Assembly: GCA_024709365.1 (NCBI GenBank)
Contig: JANJWV010000237.1
Span: forward strand, 1-33,231
DNA: 33,231 nt
Origin: Desulfomicrobium sp.
GTDB lineage: Bacteria > Desulfobacterota > Desulfovibrionia > Desulfovibrionales > Desulfomicrobiaceae
Direction of reading: 5' to 3'
Below are positions 3,355 to 15,861 of the stretch, in pieces. The notes under the pieces are model-generated. The model was not told the DNA's origin. It saw only the letters and a program-made list of their open reading frames with translations, and did no database searches. The position numbers and the translations under genes were made by a program. Numbering within the stretch: position 1 is the stretch's first letter; the number at the start of each line of letters is the position of its first letter.

Positions 3355-4190
3355 CAGATCTCCTTGTCTTGATGGAATTGTCGCAGCCACGCGTCGGCCT
3401 CGGGCCAGAAATGCGCGGCCCCTTCGAGAATGCCGGCGGCGTAGTTGCCGTTCATGCCCAGATAGCCCCTGGCAATGTGCAGGGGCTTCTTGCCCTCCAG
3501 CCGCCTCCTGACCTCCGCGTCGGCGTTGGCCACGAGCACGGCCGGGATCTCGCTCGCCAGAACGTCAAGGTCGTTGCCGCTGTCGCCGGCGAAGAGCGTT
3601 TCGGCCGGGGCGAAACCTTCCCGCCGCATCAGGAAGCGGATGGCGGAAAGCTTCCCGGCCCGGGCCGGCAGCACGTCCAGAAGCCCCATCCCGGCCGGTC
3701 CGTCCACGCTCCAGATCAGGGCGGCCCGGACGGACTCCCGGTCCAGTACGGCGGACATGCGTCTCGTCAGCGTCTCATGGTCCCAATCGAGGGGCGCGTA
3801 ATAGCTCAGCTTGTAGGGGCCCTGCTTTTCCTCTTCCTGCAGCTCAAGCCCCCACGCCGGTCCCAGCAGCTTGTGCAGGTCCGCGGAGGTCATGCCCGCC
3901 CAGTCCGGCGCGATGTGCGCCTCCCAGTCGGGCCAGCGTGCCCAGCCGTCCGCCTGCGTGCGGTAGATGGTCGCGCCCACGTCGGCCACGGCGAAATCCG
4001 GCCAGGGAAGCCGGAACTCGCGGATGGCGCCCTCGATGAGGGCCTTGTGGCGTCCGGTGACATAGGCCAGGCAAACCTCGTCGCGGGAAACCAGGCGGGC
4101 GAACAGGCGCGGCGCGTCGGGCGACAGGGGTTGGGGACCGTTGGGGATGAGGGTCCTGTCCAGGTCGGTGCACAGGAGCAGCCGCCTCAT
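3354..4190 (-). CDS. spp: Sucrose-phosphate phosphatase (HAD-IIB family)
   Basis: The enzyme dephosphorylates sucrose-6-phosphate to sucrose, the last step of sucrose synthesis. The 278-residue protein has all HAD motifs: DLDRT with Asp9 and Asp11 at the N-terminus, TGRH near 45 as motif II, Lys180 as motif III, and GDSGND at 202-207 as motif IV. The start at 4190 overlaps the stop of the synthase gene in an ATGA, and its own stop overlaps the amylosucrase start, so the three genes are probably translationally coupled. Family assignment rests on these motifs and on the neighbouring sucrose-phosphate synthase. Mannosyl-3-phosphoglycerate phosphatase is a related HAD-IIB alternative made unlikely by the context. 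Confidence 0.88.
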   Translation of the reverse strand: MRRLLLCTDLDRTLIPNGPQPLSPDAPRLFARLVSRDEVCLAYVTGRHKALIEGAIREFRLPWPDFAVADVGATIYRTQADGWARWPDWEAHIAPDWAGMTSADLHKLLGPAWGLELQEEEKQGPYKLSYYAPLDWDHETLTRRMSAVLDRESVRAALIWSVDGPAGMGLLDVLPARAGKLSAIRFLMRREGFAPAETLFAGDSGNDLDVLASEIPAVLVANADAEVRRRLEGKKPLHIARGYLGMNGNYAAGILEGAAHFWPEADAWLRQFHQDKEI

Positions 4191-6343
4191 GCGCCCTTCC
4201 CCCGGTTCGGGAAGCCGTAATGCTCCATGGCTTCGAGGATGCCTTCGGCGTGGGAGGCCCGGGCGAAATAGATGGTGTCGGTCTGGGCCAGCCCCGAGAG
4301 TTCGGCGGCGAGGTGCCGGCTGTTCACGACCGTGCCCAGGGTGTTGCCGCGGAGCATGTCGGCGTCGGCGCCCGTGACGCCGGCCACCAGGGTGTTCTCC
4401 AGGGGGAAGTCCAGGTGCTCGGCGCACCAGCGCAGGGCCAGGCCCTTGGAGGCCCGCACGGGCAGCACGTCGAGGTACTGCTCGAAGGACACGATGACGT
4501 TCGCCGTCTGTTCGGCGCGCTGCAGGAGCTGTCTGACCTCCTGCTCGCCGATGACGTTGGTGTCGATGTAATAGCTGACCTTGAAGGCGCTCAGGAATTT
4601 CTTGGGCTGCAGGGTCAGGCCCGGGATGTCCCGCAGGGCCTTGCGGACCAGCCCCGGCGTCCAGAGGTGGTCGATGTGCCTCTCCCAGGTGGCGTCCTGG
4701 GTCAGGTCCGGGGCGTAGTGGATCTCAGTGCCCTGCCCCGAGATGAGCACGTCGGGCTGCGGGATGCGGTGCCTGCGCAGGGTCGCCAGGGCGTCGTCGA
4801 GGCGCCGCCCCGTGGCGATGCCGAAGATGACGGATTTGCGCAGGCCGCGCAGGGTCCTGACCAGTTCCTGCAGGGACGCCTCGTCCCCCAGCAGACTCAG
4901 GTCCAGCTCCGCGAACAGGGCCCGCTTGCGTGCCACCCCCTGCAGGATGATGGGGCAGGCGCGCGGGAGCTGTTCGGTCTTGTCCACCAGCGGACGGACC
5001 AGGCCGAGGTATTTCTTGACGTGGGCGTCCCAGGAGTAGTGACGGCGGACGCCCGCGATCCCGTTCCTGGAGAAGCGCCGCCAGGTTTTCCTGTCCTTGA
5101 TGGTCCGCAGCAGCGTCGCGGCCATGGCCTCCTTGTCCAGCGGGTCGATCAGGTATCCGTTTTCGCAGTTCCCGACGATGTCCCGCGGTCCGCCGTCCTC
5201 GGTGGCCACCAGCGGCAGGCCGCAGGCCGCGGCTTCGAGCAACGTCAGGCCGAAGGGCTCCGTCAGGGCGGGGTTGACGAAGACCCCGCGCGACGCGGCG
5301 GCCAGACGGTAGAGGACGGCCACCTCCTCGGGCTTGTGGTGCTTGGGGTACGCGACCCTGCCGTACAGGTCGTGGCGGTCGACGGCCAGCAGGATGTCGC
5401 TCAGCACCCCCCGCGCGCCGTCGTCCATGTCCTGGATGTCGTCGCGGTTGCCGGCCACGACGACCAGATTCGCGGCCTCCTGCAGCTCCGGGGATTCCCC
5501 GTAGGCGTCGATGAGCGTAACGATGTTCTTCTTCGGGTCGGGCCGCGACAGGGCCAGGATCATGGGCTTGGAGCTGCGCTTCAGGAACCGTCTGAGTTCC
5601 CGCCCGATGTCCGTGCCCCACTCGTTTGCCCGTGACGGGTGGAAGCGCGACATGTCCGTGCCGGGCGGAACGACGCGCATGCGCTCGGGCTGGTAGAAGT
5701 CGTAGAGGCCGTACTGTTCCTCGATCTCCTGCCGGGTGCTGGTGATGACGCGTCCGGCAACGCTCAGGGTCGTCTCCTCGGCTTCGATGCGGCGCGAAAT
5801 GTTGTAGGTCCCTTCGAGCTGGAGGCGCGTGGCGCCGCCTGCCAGCAGCCGCAGCCGCTTGCTGCGGCCCAGCGAGTGGCCGGTGTGCACCAGCGGGATG
5901 CCCAGCTGGTTGGCCAGCCTGGCGCCGACGTACCCGGCGTCGGCATAGTGGCTGTGAATGACGTCGGGCATGCGCTCCTGGCTGCGCAGGAAGGACACGA
6001 CATTGTCGGAAAAGCTGTCGAGGTGGTCCCAGAGGAGCTCCTTGCGGATGTACCCCTCCTCGCCGCACTCTATGCGCACGATGGACGCCTTTTCGGACAG
6101 GGGCTCCTCCGTCACGGCGTAATCCGGGCTTACAGCCGGGTCCACGACGCGCCGTGTCAGCAGGACCACCCTCTCGATCTCCCGGCTCTCGCCCAGGGCC
6201 CGGGCCAGCTCCACCACGTATTTGACCTGCCCCCCCGTGTCCGCGTCGCGGCCCAGTTCGGGGTCGTGCCCGCGGACCAGGCCGTGCACGCTCAGGAGCA
6301 CGATGAACAGCGGCGCCTTTTTCGTGCGCCTGCGGGCGCTCAT
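4187..6343 (-). CDS. sps: Sucrose-phosphate synthase with a degenerate C-terminal HAD domain
   Basis: The enzyme joins UDP-glucose (or ADP-glucose) and fructose-6-phosphate to give sucrose-6-phosphate. The 718-residue product starts with the diagnostic sequence GHDPELGRDADTGGQ (25-39), followed by a GT4 (GT-B) fold with VHTGHSLGR (152-160) and the nucleotide-sugar-binding segment NPALTEPFGLTLLE containing Glu362 and Glu370. Residues from about 465 to 718 form a phosphatase-like HAD domain. Its first motif is ELDLS (479-483), so the catalytic first Asp of DxD is replaced by Glu; the domain is probably inactive and the separate phosphatase gene supplies that activity. The start at 6343 overlaps the fructokinase stop in an ATGA, with GGGAGTGG upstream. 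A frame open further upstream lies inside the fructokinase gene and was not used. Confidence 0.92.
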   Translation of the reverse strand: MSARRRTKKAPLFIVLLSVHGLVRGHDPELGRDADTGGQVKYVVELARALGESREIERVVLLTRRVVDPAVSPDYAVTEEPLSEKASIVRIECGEEGYIRKELLWDHLDSFSDNVVSFLRSQERMPDVIHSHYADAGYVGARLANQLGIPLVHTGHSLGRSKRLRLLAGGATRLQLEGTYNISRRIEAEETTLSVAGRVITSTRQEIEEQYGLYDFYQPERMRVVPPGTDMSRFHPSRANEWGTDIGRELRRFLKRSSKPMILALSRPDPKKNIVTLIDAYGESPELQEAANLVVVAGNRDDIQDMDDGARGVLSDILLAVDRHDLYGRVAYPKHHKPEEVAVLYRLAAASRGVFVNPALTEPFGLTLLEAAACGLPLVATEDGGPRDIVGNCENGYLIDPLDKEAMAATLLRTIKDRKTWRRFSRNGIAGVRRHYSWDAHVKKYLGLVRPLVDKTEQLPRACPIILQGVARKRALFAELDLSLLGDEASLQELVRTLRGLRKSVIFGIATGRRLDDALATLRRHRIPQPDVLISGQGTEIHYAPDLTQDATWERHIDHLWTPGLVRKALRDIPGLTLQPKKFLSAFKVSYYIDTNVIGEQEVRQLLQRAEQTANVIVSFEQYLDVLPVRASKGLALRWCAEHLDFPLENTLVAGVTGADADMLRGNTLGTVVNSRHLAAELSGLAQTDTIYFARASHAEGILEAMEHYGFPNRGKGA

Positions 6344-7293
6344 GGATGCCACTCCCGGAGAAAGGGCCGGTAGAAGTCGGCGCTGTCCGGCACGGCGCCG
6401 CGCAGGCCGCAGATGGTCCTGGCGAAGGCGTCGGCCCGATTCAGGGTTTCCGGCAGGGGCCAGCCCGAGACCGCGCCGAGGATGCACACGGCCGCGAACC
6501 CGTCCCCGGCTCCCACGGTGTCGACCACATCCGGCTGCCCGAAGGCCAGGGGAGTCGCGCTCCACTGCCCTCCCTCCGTGACCTGCCAGGCGCCCTCCTC
6601 GGCGCAGGTCACGATGGCCCGACCGATGCCGAAATGACGCATCAGGCCGCGGACTCGATCTTCCTGATCTTCGCCGTCGAGCCCGAACAGGCGTCCGAGG
6701 GCCATGAGCTCCTCGGCGTTGATCTTGAGGATGTCGGCCTGAGTCAGCGAAAAGCGGATCGCGGCGTCCGTGTACCAGGGGTCGCGCAGGTTCAGGTCGA
6801 CGAACCTCGGCGCGGGGACCGTCTCCAGTACGGCCTCCAGCGCGCGACGGGAGATGTCGCCGCGCTGGCTCAGTGTGCCGAAGTAGACCATGGCGGGATC
6901 GATGACGGAGACCGCCGAGCGGGCCGCTTCGGGGTCGATGAAGTCGAAGGCCTGGTCGTTCAGGATTTCGAAATGGTGGCCGCCCGTCTCCATGTGGACC
7001 CGCACCCGCCCCGTGGGGCGGTCGCGGTCGATCTGCACCGCGCGCCCATCCATGCCGGCCGCGGCCATGGCGGCAAGGATTTCCCCGCCCAGTTCATCTT
7101 CGCCCACGCGCGAGACGAGCAGCGCGTCCAGGCCGAATGCGGCCAGATGACGCGCGACGTTGAAGGGCGCGCCGCCGAGAACGCTGCGGTCCGGAAACAT
7201 GTCGGCCAGGATTTCCCCGAAGAGCAGGACCTGGGGAGGGTGAGCCTTAGGGTGATCACTTTGGGCCGGGTCGTGAAAATATTGGAGTGGCAT
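6340..7293 (-). CDS. PfkB-family fructokinase
   Basis: This is a 317-residue PfkB-type sugar kinase, first gene of the sucrose operon. The N-terminal substrate motif LGGAPFNVARHLAAFG lies near 39-54, and the C-terminal ATP/anion-hole motif DTVGAGDGFAA lies at 258-268 with catalytic Asp264. Fructokinase phosphorylates free fructose to fructose-6-phosphate, which feeds the synthase and recycles the fructose released by amylosucrase. The substrate is inferred from the context; PfkB proteins for other sugars look similar. No strong ribosome site precedes the ATG at 7293, only AGGG about 14 bases before. The gene is translationally coupled to the synthase. The same four functions are clustered in halotolerant methanotrophs, where sucrose is a compatible solute. 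Confidence 0.87.
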   Translation of the reverse strand: MPLQYFHDPAQSDHPKAHPPQVLLFGEILADMFPDRSVLGGAPFNVARHLAAFGLDALLVSRVGEDELGGEILAAMAAAGMDGRAVQIDRDRPTGRVRVHMETGGHHFEILNDQAFDFIDPEAARSAVSVIDPAMVYFGTLSQRGDISRRALEAVLETVPAPRFVDLNLRDPWYTDAAIRFSLTQADILKINAEELMALGRLFGLDGEDQEDRVRGLMRHFGIGRAIVTCAEEGAWQVTEGGQWSATPLAFGQPDVVDTVGAGDGFAAVCILGAVSGWPLPETLNRADAFARTICGLRGAVPDSADFYRPFLREWHP

Positions 7294-7524
7294 ACGCGTG
7301 AAGCAACCCTTGTTTTATCAATTATTCTACAATTTTTTGTACGGATATGGACACGCACAAACAGCATGCGTCTTCTGGAAAGAAAAGCAGTGATCCGCAG
7401 CCAGGCTGTCATGCAATCTGCGCTGGAGCGACTGAGAGTTTCATATGCTGATTTCGATTTCGGAAATGCGCGGATCTTTCGAGCTTTCGAATCAATTGTA
7501 TTTGTTAGCCGAATTTTTGAACAT

Positions 7525-7539
7525 ATGTCAACTTGACAT
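7525..7539. repeat. Perfect 7-1-7 palindrome overlapping a TTGACA box
   Basis: ATGTCAA (7525-7531), one base, then TTGACAT (7533-7539). Each strand therefore carries a consensus -35 hexamer within the palindrome. It has the size of a dimeric repressor operator and lies about 230 bases upstream of the fructokinase start. Confidence 0.4.
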
Positions 7540-7590
7540 GCTCATGGATGATTCCGACAAGGCTGTGGGGCCGGCTCCGGTGTGCGCCGA

Positions 7591-7675
7591 GCGCCCGCTC
7601 GGGCGCCGTGGCAGCGGAGGCACGGACGGAAGAGGTCAGGGCCAGCCGGCGGCCGCGCTCCGGGCTGCGGCCCGG
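7591..7675 (-). terminator. Two GC-rich hairpins after the GGDEF-EAL gene
   Basis: On the minus strand the first hairpin downstream of the stop pairs 7675-7670 with 7665-7660 (stem CCGGGC, four-base loop). The second pairs 7606-7600 with 7597-7591 (seven GC-only pairs, two-base centre). No T-run follows either, so termination efficiency is uncertain. Confidence 0.4.
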
Positions 7676-7689
7676 CGCGCAGAGGGCCG

Positions 7690-10530
7690 TCAGATGGAGA
7701 ACTTGCGGAGGAAGACGATGAGTTCGTGCAGCGGCATGGGCTTGCCGAAGAAATAGCCCTGGGCCTCGTCGCAGCCCATCTCCGTGAGGGTGTCGGCGTC
7801 GTCGCGCGTCTCGACGCCCTCGGCCAGGACGCGCAGGCGCAGGCTCTTGCCCATCTGGATGATGGCCTGCAGCAGGTCGACGTCGCTCTGTCCGCCGTTG
7901 AGGCGCTGCACGAAGGAGCGGTCGATCTTGATGCGGTCGAGGGGCAGGCGGCTCAGGTAGCTCAGGGAGGAATAGCCGGTGCCGAAGTCGTCGATGGAAA
8001 CGGCCACGCCGAGCGCGGACAGTTCGCGCAGCTTCGCCCCGACCAGGCCCATGTCGCCAAGCAGCAGCGACTCGGTGATCTCCAGCTCCAGACATTCGTA
8101 GGGAAGGTCCGAACGGTCGGCGGCGGCGCGGACGTCGTCCAGGAAGCCCTCGTGCCGAAACTGCCGGGCGGAGACGTTGACGGCGACCTTCATGGCGCTT
8201 CCCGTCTGTTCCCGCACCACGCCCATGGCCCGGCAGGACTGTTCGAGGATGGCCCGGCCCAGGGGGACGATGAGGCCCGTGTCCTCGGCCACGGGGATGA
8301 ATTCGAGAGGCGAGACGATGCTCCCGTCATCGGCAGCCCAGCGCGCCAGCGCCTCGACGCCGATGACGCGCCCGCTCGCCAGGTCGATCTTGGGCTGGAA
8401 CAGGGGGTAGACGGCGCCGTGGTTCAGGGCCTGGCGCAACCGGCTTTCCAGCGTCAGGCGGGCCGAGGCCCTGATGGTCATGCCTTCCTCGAAGATGCGG
8501 AACTGGTTCTTGCCCGCACTCTTGGCGTCGTACATGGCCAGGTCGGCGTGCTTGAGCAGGGCCTGGATCGTGCGGCCGTCGCGTGGGTACACGGCGATGC
8601 CGATGGATGGGGTGACGAAGATGTTCTGTCCCTTGACATGCACCGGTTTGGCCAGGGCCCTGATGATCCGCTCGGAATACTTCTCGGCGTCGCATGCCGC
8701 ATCGTCGAAGAAGAGAAAGACGAACTCGTCACCGCCCAGACGGGCCACCACGTCCTCGGACCGCACCATGCTCTGGAACCGGCTGGCCACCTCGACCAGC
8801 AGCTCGTCCCCGGCCTCGTGGCCCAGGGAGTCGTTGACGAGCTTGAAGTTGTCGAGGTCCACGTACAGCACGGCGTGGCAGGCCGGGGTCTTCTCGGCCT
8901 TGAGCAGGGCCACTCCGAATTTCTCCTGCAGCATGGCCTTGTTCGGCAGGCCCGTGAGGTGGTCGTAGTAGGCCATGCGCATTATTTCCTGTTCTTTTTC
9001 CTTCATGGCCGTGATGTCGTGGAAGACGGCGATGAACTTGTCCGGGGCCCCCCTCTCGTCGCGCAGGGCGGTGATGGACAGCCATTCGGGATAGGCCTCG
9101 CCGGACTTGCGGCGGTTCCATATCTCGCCCGTCCACAGCCCGTCGCGCATGAGGGCGTCCCACATGGCGGTGTAGAATTCAGGCGGGTGGTGTTCCGACT
9201 TGAGGATGCGCGGGTTCTGCCCGATGGCCTCCTCGGCCGTGTAGCCGGTGATGGAAGTGAAGGCGGGGTTGACCGCGATGATCTCCCCTTCGGCGTTGGT
9301 GACCGAGATGCCTTCCTGGGAGGTTTCGAAAATCTTTTCGTACAGGCGCAGCCGCCCCTCGTATTCGTGCTTTTCGCTGATGTCCTTGGCCACCCCGAAA
9401 TACCCGCTGGCGCTGTCGGGCTCGGTGACGGGTATGGCGTTGATCAGGAAGCGTCTGGGCTTCCCGTCGGCTTTCGAGGCCAGGGAGCAGGTGAAATCGA
9501 CGATGGGGGCCAAGGGCCGCCGGACGATCCGCTCCATGGCAAATCGCCCTTCCCGCGTGTCCGGAAGGAAATCCGCCAGGGACATGCCCACGGCCTGCTC
9601 AGCGTTCACGCCGAGCAGGCTTTCGGATTGCCCGGCGACATAGACGAGGCGCCCCGCCCCGTCGGACTGCCAGATGATGTCGCCCGAGGTCAGGGCGATG
9701 TCCCGCAGCCGCGCCTCCGACATCTGCAGTTCCCTGGTCCGTCTCGTCACCCGGTCTTCGAGCTCCTCGTTGACCTGCAGCAGGTCCGCCTGGGCCGCGG
9801 CCCTCTCCCGCAGGACCTGCGCGGCCGAGCGGATGACGATGATGCCAAGGACGGTCAGGAGCGCCACGGAGCCCGCGATGAACATGGTCAGAAACCTGGA
9901 GTGACTCTCCTTGGCCCGGGCCAGCCGGGCCTGGGTTTCCGCGAGGTCCTTCATGCTCTGGACGTAGAAGCGGTTGGCGTGCTCGGCGGTGCGGCTGAAG
10001 AAGGGCGCCAGCTTCTTGTGCTTCAGGATCAGCGCGGCGGACCTTCCGCTGTCGTATCCCCCCTGGAGCCTGGCCGAGGCGAAGTCGTGGTACTCGTCGA
10101 GCATCCGTTCCAGCAGGGCGACGCTGGTCCGAAGTTCCATGCTGGCGATGTCGAGGCCGGGCACGGGCGAGTCGAGCCGGAATTCGTGGCCGACCCTGTC
10201 CAGGGAGTCGAAATTGACCTTGAAGGTCTCGACGAAGACTCCGCCGCCCTCGAGAAAGGCGGCGGCCCTGCGCACGGTGTCCATGCTCTCGCGGATGGTT
10301 TCCTCGGCCGTGACGAGGTCGCCGGGCGACGAGGCGAGCAGCATGTGCTGAAAACCGACCTGCATGCGCGAAACGTTCTTGCCGATGACGAGGCTGACGT
10401 CGCTGACCACGCGGTGGCGTTCCTGCAGTCTGGCGAAGGCCTCCAGCCGTTCGAGCATGATGCGGTTGAAGACCAGCACTCCCAGGGTGCAGCCAACGCT
10501 CAGCAGAAGCAGGACCGTCAGGTGGAGCAT
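7690..10530 (-). CDS. Membrane-bound PAS-PAS-GGDEF-EAL cyclic-di-GMP signalling protein
   Basis: This 946-residue protein makes and/or degrades cyclic di-GMP. A transmembrane segment (2-21) is followed by a largely helical periplasmic region (about 22-210), a second transmembrane segment (213-234) and a coiled linker. Two PAS domains follow (about 275-385 and 395-510), then GGDEF and EAL domains. GGDEF is intact at 599-603, with a product-inhibition site RSED at 590-593. The EAL domain keeps its catalytic signatures: EALAR (726-730), NVSARQF, EITES, DDFGTG, IKID, AEGVET and the final AQGYFFGKP. Both activities are therefore possible. I chose the ATG at 10530 because AAGGACGGAG lies 6 bases before it; an in-frame ATG at 10596 overlaps the preceding gene and lacks such a site. 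It lies 55 bases after the ModA-like lipoprotein gene, in the same direction. Confidence 0.9.
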   Translation of the reverse strand: MLHLTVLLLLSVGCTLGVLVFNRIMLERLEAFARLQERHRVVSDVSLVIGKNVSRMQVGFQHMLLASSPGDLVTAEETIRESMDTVRRAAAFLEGGGVFVETFKVNFDSLDRVGHEFRLDSPVPGLDIASMELRTSVALLERMLDEYHDFASARLQGGYDSGRSAALILKHKKLAPFFSRTAEHANRFYVQSMKDLAETQARLARAKESHSRFLTMFIAGSVALLTVLGIIVIRSAAQVLRERAAAQADLLQVNEELEDRVTRRTRELQMSEARLRDIALTSGDIIWQSDGAGRLVYVAGQSESLLGVNAEQAVGMSLADFLPDTREGRFAMERIVRRPLAPIVDFTCSLASKADGKPRRFLINAIPVTEPDSASGYFGVAKDISEKHEYEGRLRLYEKIFETSQEGISVTNAEGEIIAVNPAFTSITGYTAEEAIGQNPRILKSEHHPPEFYTAMWDALMRDGLWTGEIWNRRKSGEAYPEWLSITALRDERGAPDKFIAVFHDITAMKEKEQEIMRMAYYDHLTGLPNKAMLQEKFGVALLKAEKTPACHAVLYVDLDNFKLVNDSLGHEAGDELLVEVASRFQSMVRSEDVVARLGGDEFVFLFFDDAACDAEKYSERIIRALAKPVHVKGQNIFVTPSIGIAVYPRDGRTIQALLKHADLAMYDAKSAGKNQFRIFEEGMTIRASARLTLESRLRQALNHGAVYPLFQPKIDLASGRVIGVEALARWAADDGSIVSPLEFIPVAEDTGLIVPLGRAILEQSCRAMGVVREQTGSAMKVAVNVSARQFRHEGFLDDVRAAADRSDLPYECLELEITESLLLGDMGLVGAKLRELSALGVAVSIDDFGTGYSSLSYLSRLPLDRIKIDRSFVQRLNGGQSDVDLLQAIIQMGKSLRLRVLAEGVETRDDADTLTEMGCDEAQGYFFGKPMPLHELIVFLRKFSI

Positions 10531-10585
10531 GATCGGCTCCGTCCTTGGCAGCAGACGCGAAAGCAGCGGGAAGCCCGCTTTTCCT

Positions 10586-11350
10586 TCAGAAGCCATAGCG
10601 TTCGAACACGGCCCGGCCGCGGGAGGATGCGCAGAGTTCCAGGAAAGCGCGCGCCAGTTCCGGGTCCTGGGCGCACGAGGTGACGGCCATGGTCAGGCGG
10701 TGTTCGCGGGCGTAGCCGCCGAGGATGGGCAGCATGTCCATGTGCGCCGCGTTGTCCCCGATGAACTGGACGGCCTTCCAGTTCAGCACGACGTCGACTT
10801 TGCCGTCGCGCAGAAGCTCCGTCAGTGCCTTGGAATCCGGGGCCATCATGGCGGCCTGGGAGGCAACCTGTTCGTAGATGCCCCTGTCCGTGAGGATGCT
10901 CTGGGCCTCCTTGCCGACGGAGCCGAGGTCGGGGTGTCCGATGGCGACCTGGATGCCGGGGCGCGCCAGTTCGGCGAGTTCCCCGGTGAACCCATCGGGG
11001 TTCCCCTTGCGCACGAAGAGCGCCGCCTGGTTCACGCCCAGCTGCCTGCGCTCGCCGAGGATGCCTGCCTGGGCGGCTTCGTCGATGAAGCTTTCGACGC
11101 CTGGAAAATAGATGTCCCCCTTGCGGTTGACGATGATGGCCTGCATGAGGTCCTTGGAGCCGCCGGAGGACATGGCCGTCCTGACGCCGTGTTCCTTTGC
11201 GAAGACGTCCATGAGTTCCCTGACGGGATCGACCATGGTGATGCCGCACAGGACCAGAAGGGATTTCTCCTGCGGGGGCGCCGCGGCATCGTCGCCGGAT
11301 GAGCAACCGCAGAGGGTCAGGATGAGCAGGATGACCGAAGCGAATCGCAT
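10586..11350 (-). CDS. ModA-like substrate-binding lipoprotein without its own transporter
   Basis: This 254-residue protein starts with a lipoprotein signal (hydrophobic residues 4-13, then LCGC with Cys16 as the likely lipidated residue). The mature part looks like the ModA/WtpA oxyanion-binding superfamily: SSGGSKDLMQAI near the first anion-binding loop, then QAALFVRKGNP, VAIGHPDLGSVG and DVVLNWKAV. Molybdate or tungstate is a possible ligand, but no ModE-type site or modBC gene is beside it. The ATG at 11350 has AAAGGAG 9 bases upstream; longer in-frame extensions have no ribosome site and would bury the signal. The only co-directional downstream neighbour is the membrane GGDEF-EAL protein, which suggests ligand sensing rather than import. 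That role is inference. Confidence 0.78.
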   Translation of the reverse strand: MRFASVILLILTLCGCSSGDDAAAPPQEKSLLVLCGITMVDPVRELMDVFAKEHGVRTAMSSGGSKDLMQAIIVNRKGDIYFPGVESFIDEAAQAGILGERRQLGVNQAALFVRKGNPDGFTGELAELARPGIQVAIGHPDLGSVGKEAQSILTDRGIYEQVASQAAMMAPDSKALTELLRDGKVDVVLNWKAVQFIGDNAAHMDMLPILGGYAREHRLTMAVTSCAQDPELARAFLELCASSRGRAVFERYGF

Positions 11351-11446
11351 GGAAGAGGCTCCTTTCCGCTGTCTGTGACGTTCGCCGGAGCGGCCGCGTT
11401 CCTGATGCCGGAAAATGGCTTGGACTGCCCGGGGATACATATATAT

Positions 11447-11474
11447 TTGTAGCGCCAACCAGCGGAAAATACAA
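11447..11474. promoter_or_regulatory. Imperfect inverted repeat in the divergent promoter region
   Basis: TTGTA (11447-11451) and TACAA (11470-11474) flank an inner CGC/GCG pair with a short centre. A run of alternating A/T precedes it. The element lies 97 bases from the lipoprotein start and 73 bases from the EFR1-type start, so one regulator could control both genes. It does not clearly match the ModE site I know. Confidence 0.3.
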
Positions 11475-11546
11475 CAAGGCCGTGTCTCTCGCGACTCGAA
11501 TGGTCGTGATTTCGATTCAGCCCTCCATCTGCAAAGGAGCATTTCC

Positions 11547-12471: not shown

Positions 12472-13299
12472 ATGAAACGTTCCATGCATTTTGCGGCCCT
12501 GGCGGCCCTCTTCCTCTTCACGTGCACGGCGGCGCGGGCCGACATGCTCCAGCAGTTCGCGGGCCAGAAGGGCAAGATCGACATCGCCGGCGGCACGGCG
12601 CACATCCCGGTCATGAACGAGGCGGCCAAGCGGATCATGACCGTCAACCCGGACATCCGCATCACCGTCGAGGGCGGCGGGACCGGTGTGGGCGTGCAGA
12701 AGGCCGGCGAGGGCCTGGTGGACATCGGCAATACCGGCCGCGCCCTGTCCGCGGAAGAGGTCGCCAAATACGGCCTGGTCTCCTTCCCCTTCGCCGTGGA
12801 CGGCGTGACCGTCGTCCTGAACCCGGCCAACGCCGTGAAGGAGCTGACCGCCGCGCAGGTCCAGGACATCTTTGCCGGCAAGATCACCAACTGGAAGGAC
12901 GTGGGCGGGGCCGACGCGGCCATCACCCTCTACACCCGCGACGAGGCCAGCGGCACGCGCGAGGTGTTCTGGGAGAAGCTGCTGAAGAAGGGCGCCGTGG
13001 CCGACAAGGCCAACGTGGTGGCCTCCAACGGGGCCATGAAGGTCGCCGTTTCCCAGGACGCCTCCGGCATCGGGTACATGAGCATCGGGTTCGTGGACGC
13101 CACGGTGAAGGCGCCCCTGCTCGACGGCGTGGAGCCCTCCCAGGCCAACGCCACCTCCGGCGCCTACAAGGTCGCCCGCAAGCTGTTCATGAACACCAAG
13201 GGCGAACCCCAGGGGCTGACCAAGCTCTTCATCGAGTACGTGACCGGTCCAGAGTGTACGGACATCATCTCCAAGGCCGGGTACATCCCGCTCAAGTAG
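12472..13299 (+). CDS. pstS: Phosphate ABC transporter substrate-binding protein PstS
   Basis: This 275-residue periplasmic phosphate-binding protein has a signal peptide ending ARA-D near residue 23. PstS family segments are visible: IAGGTAHIP near the mature N-terminus, EGGGTGVGVQKAGEG, DIGNTGRAL, FAVDGVTVVLNPANAVKELT, IFAGKITNWKDVGG, and the phosphate-contacting RDEASGTREVFWE. It is short but normal for the anaerobe-type PstS. A strong AAGGAGG lies 6 bases before the ATG. The fused permease and the ATPase follow in the same direction; no phoU or phoBR is seen in the window. An intrinsic-terminator-like hairpin starts 22 bases after the stop and probably sets a higher level of PstS than of the membrane parts. 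Confidence 0.93.
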   Translation: MKRSMHFAALAALFLFTCTAARADMLQQFAGQKGKIDIAGGTAHIPVMNEAAKRIMTVNPDIRITVEGGGTGVGVQKAGEGLVDIGNTGRALSAEEVAKYGLVSFPFAVDGVTVVLNPANAVKELTAAQVQDIFAGKITNWKDVGGADAAITLYTRDEASGTREVFWEKLLKKGAVADKANVVASNGAMKVAVSQDASGIGYMSIGFVDATVKAPLLDGVEPSQANATSGAYKVARKLFMNTKGEPQGLTKLFIEYVTGPECTDIISKAGYIPLK

Positions 13300-13303
13300 G
13301 CGC

Positions 13304-15112
13304 GTGCGACAGACTCAACCCTGCCGGCAACAATCCACCAGGTTTTGCCGGCAGCTTTTTTTCGACCGGGCGGCCAGGGCCCTGTCCTGCGGCGCTGGGT
13401 TCGTCTCCCTGGCGACGCTGGCCGCCATTTTCGCCTTCCTGGCGCTCTTGAGCCTGCCCCTCTTCACCCAGGGGCAATGGGACAGCGTCCTGCAGACGGT
13501 CTGGCGCCCCTTCGAGGGGAGGTACGGCATCGTGCCCATGATCGCCGGATCCCTGATCCTGAGCTGCTCGGCCTTCGCCCTGGCCTACCCGCTGGGTATG
13601 GGCGTCTGCCTCTTCGTTCTCGGGCCAGGGGGAGGGCTCCTGCGTCGCGCGACCATGGGGGTGGTGACTTTCATGACGGCCATCCCCACCGTGGTCTACG
13701 GCTTCGTATCCGTCTTCCTCCTCGTGCCGCTCCTGGGCAGGGCCTTCGGCGGAAGAGGCCCGTCGCTCCTGGCCGCCGTCCTGACGTTGGCCCTGCTCGT
13801 CCTGCCGACCATCGTCCTGTTCCTGCACGGGTCCATGCGCGAGACCGAGGAACGCACCCGCCTGACCAGCGCGGCCCTGGGGTTCACGCCCCTGCAGGCC
13901 CTGCTGCTGGTGGTCCTGCCCGGATCGGCCGCAGGGTTGCGTACGGCGGCGGTCATGGGCTGGTGCCGGGCCCTGAGCGACACCCTCATCCCCCTCATGC
14001 TGGCCGGCAACGCGCCGCAGTTTCCGGATTCCCTGTTCGACTCCGTCCGCACCCTGACGGCGCACATCGCCCTGGTCGTGGCCATGGACAACAGTTCGCC
14101 GGCCTTTCACTCCCTCTTCGCCTGCGGACTGACGCTCTTCGGCGTCAGCCTCGCCGCGCAGGCCGCGTTGCGTCCGCGGTCCGCAACGTCCGGCCCCATG
14201 AGGGGCAGGACCCTCGGACTGCTTTCCTTCATGGCGGCGCGTCCCGCATGCCGGGCCCTGGTCTCGGTCTGGGCCGTCCTGTCCGCCGCGGCGGTGCTGG
14301 CGTCCGTCGGCGCCCTGCTCGTCTTTCTGCTGTCGCGCAGCCTGCCCGTCCTCGACCTGCGTCTCTTCTTCGGCGACACGCCCATATTGGCCGCGCTCCT
14401 TGGGCGGCAGCCGGTCTGGGACGGGCTTTTCGCCGCCTGCGCCGGAACCCTGGCCCTCGTAATCCTGGCCTCGCTCATGGCCATCCCCGTGGGCATCGCC
14501 GGGGGCGTCGCCCTGTTCCAGTACCTGCGGGGGCCGTGGGCCGCGGCCCTGCGGTTCTCGGCCAACGCCCTGGCCGGCGTGCCGTCCATCGTCATGGGGC
14601 TCTTCGGATTCTCGCTGATCATCCTCCTGCGCCACACCGTCGCGCACGAGGCCAACACCAGCCTGCTACTCTCGGCCGTGTGCATCGCACTGCTCGTCCT
14701 GCCGTACACCATCAACGCCACGGCCCAGTCCCTGGACACCCTGCCCGTGGATCTGCGCCTGCTGGGCCCGAGCCTGGGCATGACCTCCTGGCAGAGCCTG
14801 CGGCGCATCCTGCTGCCCGCCGCGGGCCGGGGGATTCTCGGCGGCGTGGTCCTGTCCATGGGCCGTGCGGCCGAGGACACGGCCGTCATCCTCCTGACCG
14901 GGGTCGTGGCCCACGGCGGCCTGCCGCGCGGGCTCTTCGACAAGTTCGAGGCCCTGCCCTTCACCATCTACTACCTGGCCGCCCAGTACCAGAGCGCCCA
15001 CGACCTGGCCAAAGGCTTCGGCGCGGCCCTGACACTGCTCGCCCTGACCGTCCTGCTGTTCTGCATCGCGCGGGCCCTGCAGGGCCGCATGGAGAGGGAA
15101 TGGAAACACTGA
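13304..15112 (+). CDS. Fused phosphate ABC transporter permease (PstC-PstA in one chain)
   Basis: This 602-residue membrane protein contains two BPD_transp_1 permease halves that are normally separate PstC and PstA. The first half spans about 30-290, with TAIPTVVYGFVSVF (125-138) and its cytoplasmic coupling loop near 188-215 (TSAALGFTPLQALLLVVLPG). The second spans about 315-590, with AGVPSIVMGLFGFS (424-437), the coupling loop LGMTSWQSLRRILLPAAGRG (491-510) and AAEDTAVILLTG. The linker (about 288-312) has no stop. The only usual start codon before residue 79 is the GTG at 13304, 5 bases after the pstS stop, with a weak AGTAGG. The first 20 codons therefore include a terminator-like hairpin. 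The exact N-terminus is uncertain. Confidence 0.88.
   Translation: MRQTQPCRQQSTRFCRQLFFDRAARALSCGAGFVSLATLAAIFAFLALLSLPLFTQGQWDSVLQTVWRPFEGRYGIVPMIAGSLILSCSAFALAYPLGMGVCLFVLGPGGGLLRRATMGVVTFMTAIPTVVYGFVSVFLLVPLLGRAFGGRGPSLLAAVLTLALLVLPTIVLFLHGSMRETEERTRLTSAALGFTPLQALLLVVLPGSAAGLRTAAVMGWCRALSDTLIPLMLAGNAPQFPDSLFDSVRTLTAHIALVVAMDNSSPAFHSLFACGLTLFGVSLAAQAALRPRSATSGPMRGRTLGLLSFMAARPACRALVSVWAVLSAAAVLASVGALLVFLLSRSLPVLDLRLFFGDTPILAALLGRQPVWDGLFAACAGTLALVILASLMAIPVGIAGGVALFQYLRGPWAAALRFSANALAGVPSIVMGLFGFSLIILLRHTVAHEANTSLLLSAVCIALLVLPYTINATAQSLDTLPVDLRLLGPSLGMTSWQSLRRILLPAAGRGILGGVVLSMGRAAEDTAVILLTGVVAHGGLPRGLFDKFEALPFTIYYLAAQYQSAHDLAKGFGAALTLLALTVLLFCIARALQGRMEREWKH
13321..13363 (+). terminator. 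Intrinsic terminator or attenuator between pstS and the fused permease
   Basis: CTGCCGGCAA (13321-13330) pairs perfectly with TTGCCGGCAG (13345-13354); the loop is 14 bases and the run C-TTTTTTT-C follows at 13355-13363. This is the best intrinsic-terminator architecture in the window, yet it lies inside the predicted first 20 codons of the permease gene. Partial termination here would give more pstS than permease/ATPase mRNA. Confidence 0.8.
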
Positions 15113-15861
15113 ACCCGCATTTCACCCTGCGCGGCGTGGGCGTGACCCTGAACGGCCGCCGCATCCTCGAAGGCATCGACCTCGATATCCCCAAGGGGCG
15201 CGCGACCTTCATCATGGGACGCTCCGGGGCCGGCAAGACCACCCTGCTGCGCGTGCTGAATCGTCTCAATGAGTGCTTTCCCGGCAGCGAAACCTCCGGA
15301 GAGGTGCTGCTGCACCTGGATCGCGGCGTGGTCCGACCCTACGCCGGCGACATCGCCCTGCCGGAGCTGCGGCGCCTGGTCGGCATGGTCTTCCAGCACC
15401 CCAACGTCCTGCCCATGAGCATCGAGGCCAATATCGCCATGCCCCTGTCCACGGTCCGCGGCTGCGGCCGCGACGAGGCCATGGAGGTGGCCCGCCTGGC
15501 CCTGCAGGAGGCGCGGCTCTGGGAGGAGGTCCGCGACCGGCTGGACGCCGATGCCCGCACCCTGTCGGGCGGCCAGCAGCAGCGCCTGTGTCTGGCGCGG
15601 ACCCTGGCCATGAAGCCCGATGTCCTGCTCCTGGACGAGCCCACGTCGTCCCTCGACTTCATGGCGGCCAGGGGCATCGAGGAACTGCTTGCGGGACTCA
15701 AGGGCCGCTACACGCTGGTGGTCGTTTCCCATGGCCGGGAGTTCTCGGCGAGACTGGCGGACGACATCGTCATTCTGCGGGACGGACGGGTGCACGGGCC
15801 TTCCGGGGACATCGACGCAGATCTCGACACGTGTCCGGAAGGTCTGGAAAGAATGCCCTGA
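15100..15861 (+). CDS. pstB: Phosphate ABC transporter ATP-binding protein PstB
   Basis: This 253-residue ABC ATPase powers the fused permease. Walker A GRSGAGKTT lies at 40-48, followed by the PstB-typical LNRLNE, a Q-loop in FQHPNVLP, the signature LSGGQQQRLCLAR, Walker B VLLLDEP and the switch His in VVSHG. The ATG at 15100 overlaps the permease gene by 13 bases and has GGAGAGG directly upstream, which suggests translational coupling. A much longer open frame runs through this region from further upstream, but before 15100 it is only a shadow of the permease gene. A GC-rich hairpin starts at the stop codon. PstB is favoured over other importers because pstS and the permease precede it. Confidence 0.9.
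   Translation: METLNPHFTLRGVGVTLNGRRILEGIDLDIPKGRATFIMGRSGAGKTTLLRVLNRLNECFPGSETSGEVLLHLDRGVVRPYAGDIALPELRRLVGMVFQHPNVLPMSIEANIAMPLSTVRGCGRDEAMEVARLALQEARLWEEVRDRLDADARTLSGGQQQRLCLARTLAMKPDVLLLDEPTSSLDFMAARGIEELLAGLKGRYTLVVVSHGREFSARLADDIVILRDGRVHGPSGDIDADLDTCPEGLERMP

Follow-up and report, generated by a model that had tools for sequence, protein, structure and literature searches.

According to PMC6321045 and PMC9602780, gating of receptors by solute-binding proteins is believed to be widespread, but few such receptors are characterised. In the NspS-MbaA system, as described in PMC8967002 and PMC9993111, the NspS gene overlaps the next gene by 16 nucleotides (nt) in Vibrio cholerae and by 3 nt in Sinorhizobium meliloti, and the state of NspS decides whether MbaA makes or degrades cyclic di-GMP (c-di-GMP). 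TorS and LytS are also gated by periplasmic binding proteins, and PMC6321045 describes the TorT-TorS and XylFII-LytS complexes. The locus analysed here lies in a 33,231-nt stretch of Desulfomicrobium sp. DNA (contig JANJWV010000237.1; hereafter the window), where a gene for a ModA-like lipoprotein overlaps a gene for a membrane-bound GGDEF-EAL protein. The two products very probably form one two-part receptor, in which the lipoprotein is given over to sensing and its docking state shifts the c-di-GMP balance; the sensory pairing of lipoprotein and partner is itself well supported.

Gene structure and conservation of the pair

The lipoprotein gene (10586..11350, reverse strand) starts with an ATG at 11350, preceded by a good ribosome-binding site, and its stop codon ends at 10586. 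Profile matches and a predicted model identify the 254-residue product as a ModA-like solute-binding lipoprotein of a sensory subfamily; its N-terminus reads MRFASVILLILTLCGC, with Cys16 present. The GGDEF-EAL gene (7690..10596, reverse strand) follows directly from an ATG at 10596, and the two open reading frames share 11 nt (10586..10596), an overlap that probably couples their translation. Open reading frame, Pfam and hydrophobicity analyses give the 968-residue partner the order transmembrane (TM) segment, periplasmic helical sensor, TM segment, PAS, PAS, GGDEF, EAL. Its GGDEF (621), I-site RxxD (612), EAL (748) and DDFGTG (869) motifs are intact, and we take them to have their usual meaning. 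Pfam domains, hydrophobic segments and motifs thus agree with the original prediction, which had described the next gene in the same direction as a two-TM PAS-PAS-GGDEF-EAL protein with intact sites. The periplasmic region had been set at residues 22-210 and needs correction, since the hydrophobic segments at 24-42 and 237-255 place it at about 43-236.

Within the window's own family (22 genomes), a lipoprotein-like protein occurs in the window's genome, and the only other match is weak (3.3e-21). A search of 348 genomes of the order uncovered 13 close homologues besides the window (31-45% identity), followed by a tail of ModA-type proteins, and the downstream gene matched the sensor at 11 of these 13 loci by single-sequence search and at all 13 by profile. 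In a profile scan of the order, the lipoprotein family scored above 270 bits in 14 genomes and every other match reached at most 166 bits; independent scans of both proteins placed the sensor beside the lipoprotein in 14/14. The order also holds a fifteenth strong sensor, in genome G297, and three weak partial sensor matches without such a lipoprotein. In a phylum-even sample of 395 genomes the lipoprotein occurs in five, with the sensor adjacent in four and the fifth locus ending at a contig end.

A single-sequence scan of genome contigs returned no relative, and a profile-guided alignment scan of named genomes gave 41 loci. The taxa named for these include Desulfobacteraceae, Gammaproteobacteria, Alphaproteobacteria, Anaerolineae, Planctomycetales and Cloacimonadota; many of the loci come from metagenome bins, and individual taxon names may be wrong. 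Plasmid proteins gave distant matches only, all below 60% identity (23-29% among the matches listed) and mostly annotated modA. A census of 54 distinct loci was assembled from the window, the 13 order loci and 40 others, leaving out L061, which is the same contig as L043. Apart from that shared contig, the order loci took no part in building the census sensor profile. With this profile, a sensor gene is found directly downstream on the same strand at 52 of the 54 loci, the two misses being L066, where 282 nt of contig are left, and L078. No ModB-like gene stands beside the lipoprotein at any of the 54, whereas ModB is the next gene downstream in each of the six ModA-type controls (L054-L059). 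The association of lipoprotein and sensor is far beyond chance; gene structure, a dedicated pairing across phyla and the absence of a transporter partner are direct observations.

The original prediction was that the lipoprotein could pass ligand information to the GGDEF-EAL protein, and it looked to conservation of the pair across genomes. Such conservation extends over many phyla, and the loci present the opposite of homologues that keep company with modBC and never with a GGDEF-EAL gene: the sensor is almost always next in line, nine partners are GGDEF-EAL proteins and ModB is absent. These counts also bear on the idea of a transport lipoprotein that has been separated from its former neighbours, serves a distant permease or a nearby phosphate-type ATP-binding cassette (ABC) operon, and precedes the GGDEF-EAL gene incidentally. 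SBP_bac_11, its superfamily, is a transport family, and the phosphate-type operon (12472-13299, 13304-15112 and 15109-15861, forward strand) lies about 1.1 kb from the lipoprotein gene with one ferredoxin-type gene between; that operon has its own binding protein, however, and together with the pairing across phyla and the lack of ModB-like neighbours this leaves a transport role highly improbable. The earlier statement that no permease or ATPase lies beside the lipoprotein therefore holds for the adjacent genes and the same strand, and has to be qualified by this operon on the other strand, to which the nearest permease belongs; neither ModB nor ModC is a neighbour.

The periplasmic sensor and a proposed mechanism

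Profile similarity shows that the partners share a homologous region between their two TM segments: when the window is left out of the sensor profile, that profile still finds the window's sensor at 5.4e-32. No Pfam family matches this sensor at E 0.1, and searching PDB sequences with its profile yielded nothing credible, the best match (E 0.63) being a designed protein that was rejected as a relative. The predicted model (predicted local distance difference test score, pLDDT, 91.8) consists of four helices plus a hairpin (119-141), a helical-bundle periplasmic sensor fold of the TorS/LytS type. After structure-based re-ranking, the best matches are TorS (3i9w; Z 15.2, 125 aligned, 1.6 Å) and LytS from the XylFII-LytS complex (5xsj; Z 13.4, 122 aligned, 2.0 Å), values to be read against the roughly Z 14 that helical models reach by their common arrangement. 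TorS leads only in this second look; Foldseek alone put flagellins first, with poor TM-scores, and these were set aside as long-helix artefacts. NarQ, KinB, Tar, PcaY and Adeh_2942 are further helical sensors among the structural matches.

Positions 9811..10596 (reverse strand) encode residues 1-262 of the partner, with both TM segments, the sensor and its beta-hairpin, and five conserved residues, G118, G119, N128, R202 and E205. None of the five varies among the 37 sensors in alignment A2, which was built without L065, L066, L069, L078 and L091, although L065, L069 and L091 still matched its profile. Judging from helix lengths in the model, the hairpin and R202/E205 may lie in one layer. Among 55 sensors with a lipoprotein, 54 retain all five residues, and the exception, L065, has T for N; this count combines the A2 set with the order loci and with three more linked sensors that the phylum sample supplied, leaving out G392 at a contig edge. 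All five residues are kept in only one of five sensors that stand without a lipoprotein gene: G297 lost R, G008 lost N and E, the second copy in G488 lost R, G637 lost N and R, and G534 kept all. Genome G008, of the window's own genus, has no lipoprotein gene upstream of its GGDEF-EAL homologue, which shares 61% identity with the window's partner overall, 69-72% in GGDEF and EAL, and 33% in residues 130-235. The Fisher value for residue loss is 5e-5, which ignores relatedness, and the independent losses number at most four. Loss of sensor residues where the lipoprotein is missing, like sensor homology, is directly observed.

These residues help to weigh a second explanation, in which the sensor binds a small ligand of its own, as NarQ or KinB does, and the lipoprotein serves only to concentrate that ligand locally or to supply a second input. 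NarQ, KinB, Tar and PcaY domains do appear among the structural matches, and sensors without the lipoprotein exist. Sensors that lack a lipoprotein show changes at the conserved residues. Docking or a joint function accounts for this better than a separate pocket would, which makes this explanation distinctly unlikely.

For the two-part receptor, the membrane-tethered lipoprotein would bind a small solute and, in one state, dock on the partner's helical periplasmic sensor, probably near the layer that the hairpin (G118-G119, N128) forms with the last helix (R202, E205). Such docking could change helix packing and send a signal through TM2 and the PAS domains, which would shift the balance between c-di-GMP synthesis by GGDEF and breakdown by EAL. 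Physical docking, its site, the docking state and the sign of the response are the parts of this scheme that we infer.

Several observations weigh against the two-part receptor. The lipoprotein at L078 lacks such a sensor and lies between chemoreceptor and sulfur-transport genes, and sensors without a lipoprotein (G297, G008, the second copy in G488, G637 and G534) indicate that the output protein can persist alone. Docking is deduced from genes and models. The likeness to TorS and LytS is one of fold only, a designed helical bundle scoring Z 12.9 beside the helical background, and sensor identity to the window is low, at 11-24%. The Fisher test takes no account of kinship: G488 and G637 share a family, and G534 retained the full residue set.

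Outputs, ligand and neighbourhood

Across the 54 loci, the partner carries a histidine kinase at 35, GGDEF-EAL at nine and HD-GYP without a kinase at one; no output is seen at seven, and two have no sensor. Three kinase partners show HisKA but no HATPase (L045, L052 and L074, the last cut by a contig end), and three of the loci without visible output (L063, L069 and L087) run into a contig end. A Pfam scan of nine order partners found HisKA and HATPase in seven and HisKA only in L045 and L052; these two kinase-like proteins (L045 3201-5462; L052 3266-5545) end after the HisKA region and are possibly degenerate kinases. HD-GYP lies inside the partner itself at L081 and L091, and in a response regulator after the kinase at L041-L044, L046, L048, L049, L093 and L100. 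Such regulators beside the kinase version of the pair (L041 1120-2217; L093 10215-11381; L100 11560-12717; L141 5685-6872) suggest a c-di-GMP output through phosphotransfer. Altogether, c-di-GMP enzymes (GGDEF-EAL or HD-GYP) occur at 20 of the 54 loci, a count without a base rate for comparison. GGDEF-EAL output needs three changes on the lipoprotein tree, counted without nine rows that had no assigned output. Output exchange is directly observed. The original suggestion that the pair controls c-di-GMP fits the window, whose partner is a GGDEF-EAL protein, and becomes one output of several in the relatives, where a histidine kinase is usual. Separately, a Cloacimonadota contig (L090, 2191-6700) carries two lipoprotein copies and three consecutive sensor reading frames; the pair has apparently been duplicated in tandem.

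The window lipoprotein belongs to the SBP_bac_11 superfamily (PF13531; E 4.7e-48, 164.4 bits against a gathering score of 25). Its 46.2 bits against NCBIfam modA (TIGR01256) fall short of the curated cut-off of 62.5, and it is not ModA by that cut-off or by gene context; a possible ModA in the same genome (C20:8638-8988, E 6.8e-4) lies at a contig end. SBP_bac_1, at 18.2 bits, is under its own cut-off, which sets the protein apart from PotD-type polyamine binders. In the tree, the sensory lipoproteins form a monophyletic subfamily separate from eight ModA-type proteins (100/100), and the window groups with Pseudodesulfovibrio-type kinase pairs (100/99); the window, L094 and L096 are on long branches, and the exact place of the latter two is unsure. 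A strict lipobox is present in 38 of 54 members, and most of the others have a looser cysteine site or, in a gammaproteobacterial group, an N-terminal hydrophobic segment without a cysteine. Because most members carry one of these features, membrane tethering seems general across the subfamily.

Residues conserved throughout the subfamily include T38, G64-S65, G105, N107, E148, D172-S173 and N190-W191-A193, and 14 ModA-type proteins of the order carry other letters at several of these positions (among T38, E148, D172-S173 and N190-W191-A193). The original prediction named an oxyanion as ligand. Since the subfamily branches separately from the ModA-type proteins and differs from them in conserved residues, this is a guess, and it has found no support so far. 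The predicted lipoprotein model (pLDDT 90.8) is closest to ModA (3gzg; Z 26.8, 223 aligned, 2.1 Å), and the same list of fold matches includes phospholactate-bound PEB3, D-aspartate-bound AcfC and sugar-phosphate binders.

A narrower version names molybdate or tungstate as the ligand and has the pair adjust c-di-GMP to how much of these metals is available. It draws on ModA proteins being nearest in both fold and profile, with distant sequence similarity, and on the host belonging to the Desulfovibrionales, a group rich in molybdenum and tungsten enzymes. The separate clade with its different subfamily-wide residues, the missed modA cut-off and a fold common to phospholactate-, aspartate- and sugar-phosphate-binding proteins make it rather unlikely. 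A broader proposal is put forward tentatively, as somewhat short of an even chance: that the loci represent a receptor family, as yet unnamed, that spans phyla. Its constant module would be a tethered binding protein derived from ModA together with a helical sensor that has no sequence match in Pfam or the PDB; the outputs (histidine kinase, GGDEF-EAL, HD-GYP) are exchanged, and one common non-molybdate ligand would be sensed everywhere. The binding protein is far more conserved than the sensor (mean column identity 55% versus 32%), with many positions nearly invariant across phyla, which in this proposal argues for a single ligand other than molybdate.

Gene context is mixed with respect to the ligand (NnrS upstream of the L082 locus, NIR_SIR at L088, ferredoxin at L062 and Sulf_transp at L078; the domain scan covered ten of the 173 neighbours listed), and no ligand is claimed from it. 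In the L078 locus (4788-9474, Marinisporobacter), a dCache chemoreceptor gene is immediately upstream of the lipoprotein and Sulf_transp genes are downstream, along with small genes that we read as sulfur-carrier-like. A link to chemotaxis and sulfur uptake is possible there, and the neighbours give a weak hint of a sulfur compound as ligand.

In the window, the pair adjoins a PfkB-type kinase gene downstream and a divergent ferredoxin-type gene upstream. The downstream region on the same strand (4187-7293, reverse) holds a sucrose-phosphate synthase/phosphatase-type gene together with this sugar kinase. The lipoprotein gene shares the region before it (11351..11546) with the ferredoxin-type gene, which by our reading starts at about 11547; no sigma-70-like site was found in this region. 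The permease of the phosphate-type operon (13304-15112, forward) is a single 602-residue protein that contains two BPD_transp_1 stretches; PstC and PstA halves appear to have fused here.

Comparison with known binding-protein-gated systems

The 52 loci with a sensor offer a short conserved sensor code, natural losses of the binding protein and repeated output swaps. Such a family would allow a direct test of how a single input module can drive both kinases and c-di-GMP enzymes, and it could reveal an environmental cue common to many sediment and symbiotic bacteria. It also means that genes annotated "molybdate-binding protein" beside a sensor may not be transport genes. Binding-protein-gated receptors as such are already known. 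A ModA-type or SBP_bac_11 receptor with this sensor was not found in the open-licence papers searched, which is not proof of absence.

ModA of ModABC shares its fold and a distant sequence similarity with the window lipoprotein. It differs in clade, conserved residues and modA score, and in having ModB and ModC as gene neighbours. The TorT-TorS and XylFII-LytS complexes resemble the proposed receptor in that a binding protein docks on a helical periplasmic sensor, and among natural structures TorS and LytS match the window's sensor best; the output there is a histidine kinase. No sequence link joins TorS or LytS to the window's sensor, and TorT and XylFII are not among the 50 matches listed for the lipoprotein model, which excludes neither.

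The closest parallel is NspS-MbaA. In both cases a binding-protein gene overlaps the gene for a two-TM GGDEF-EAL partner, with no transporter partner beside it, and the likeness drawn here between MbaA and the window's partner is one of gene layout and domains. NspS is a PotD-type polyamine binder, whereas the window's binding protein is ModA-type, and relatives of the window's pair mostly carry histidine kinases. Because its binding protein is of another family, the window's pair is not a member of the NspS-MbaA system; by analogy, the best-supported reading is that it works like one.

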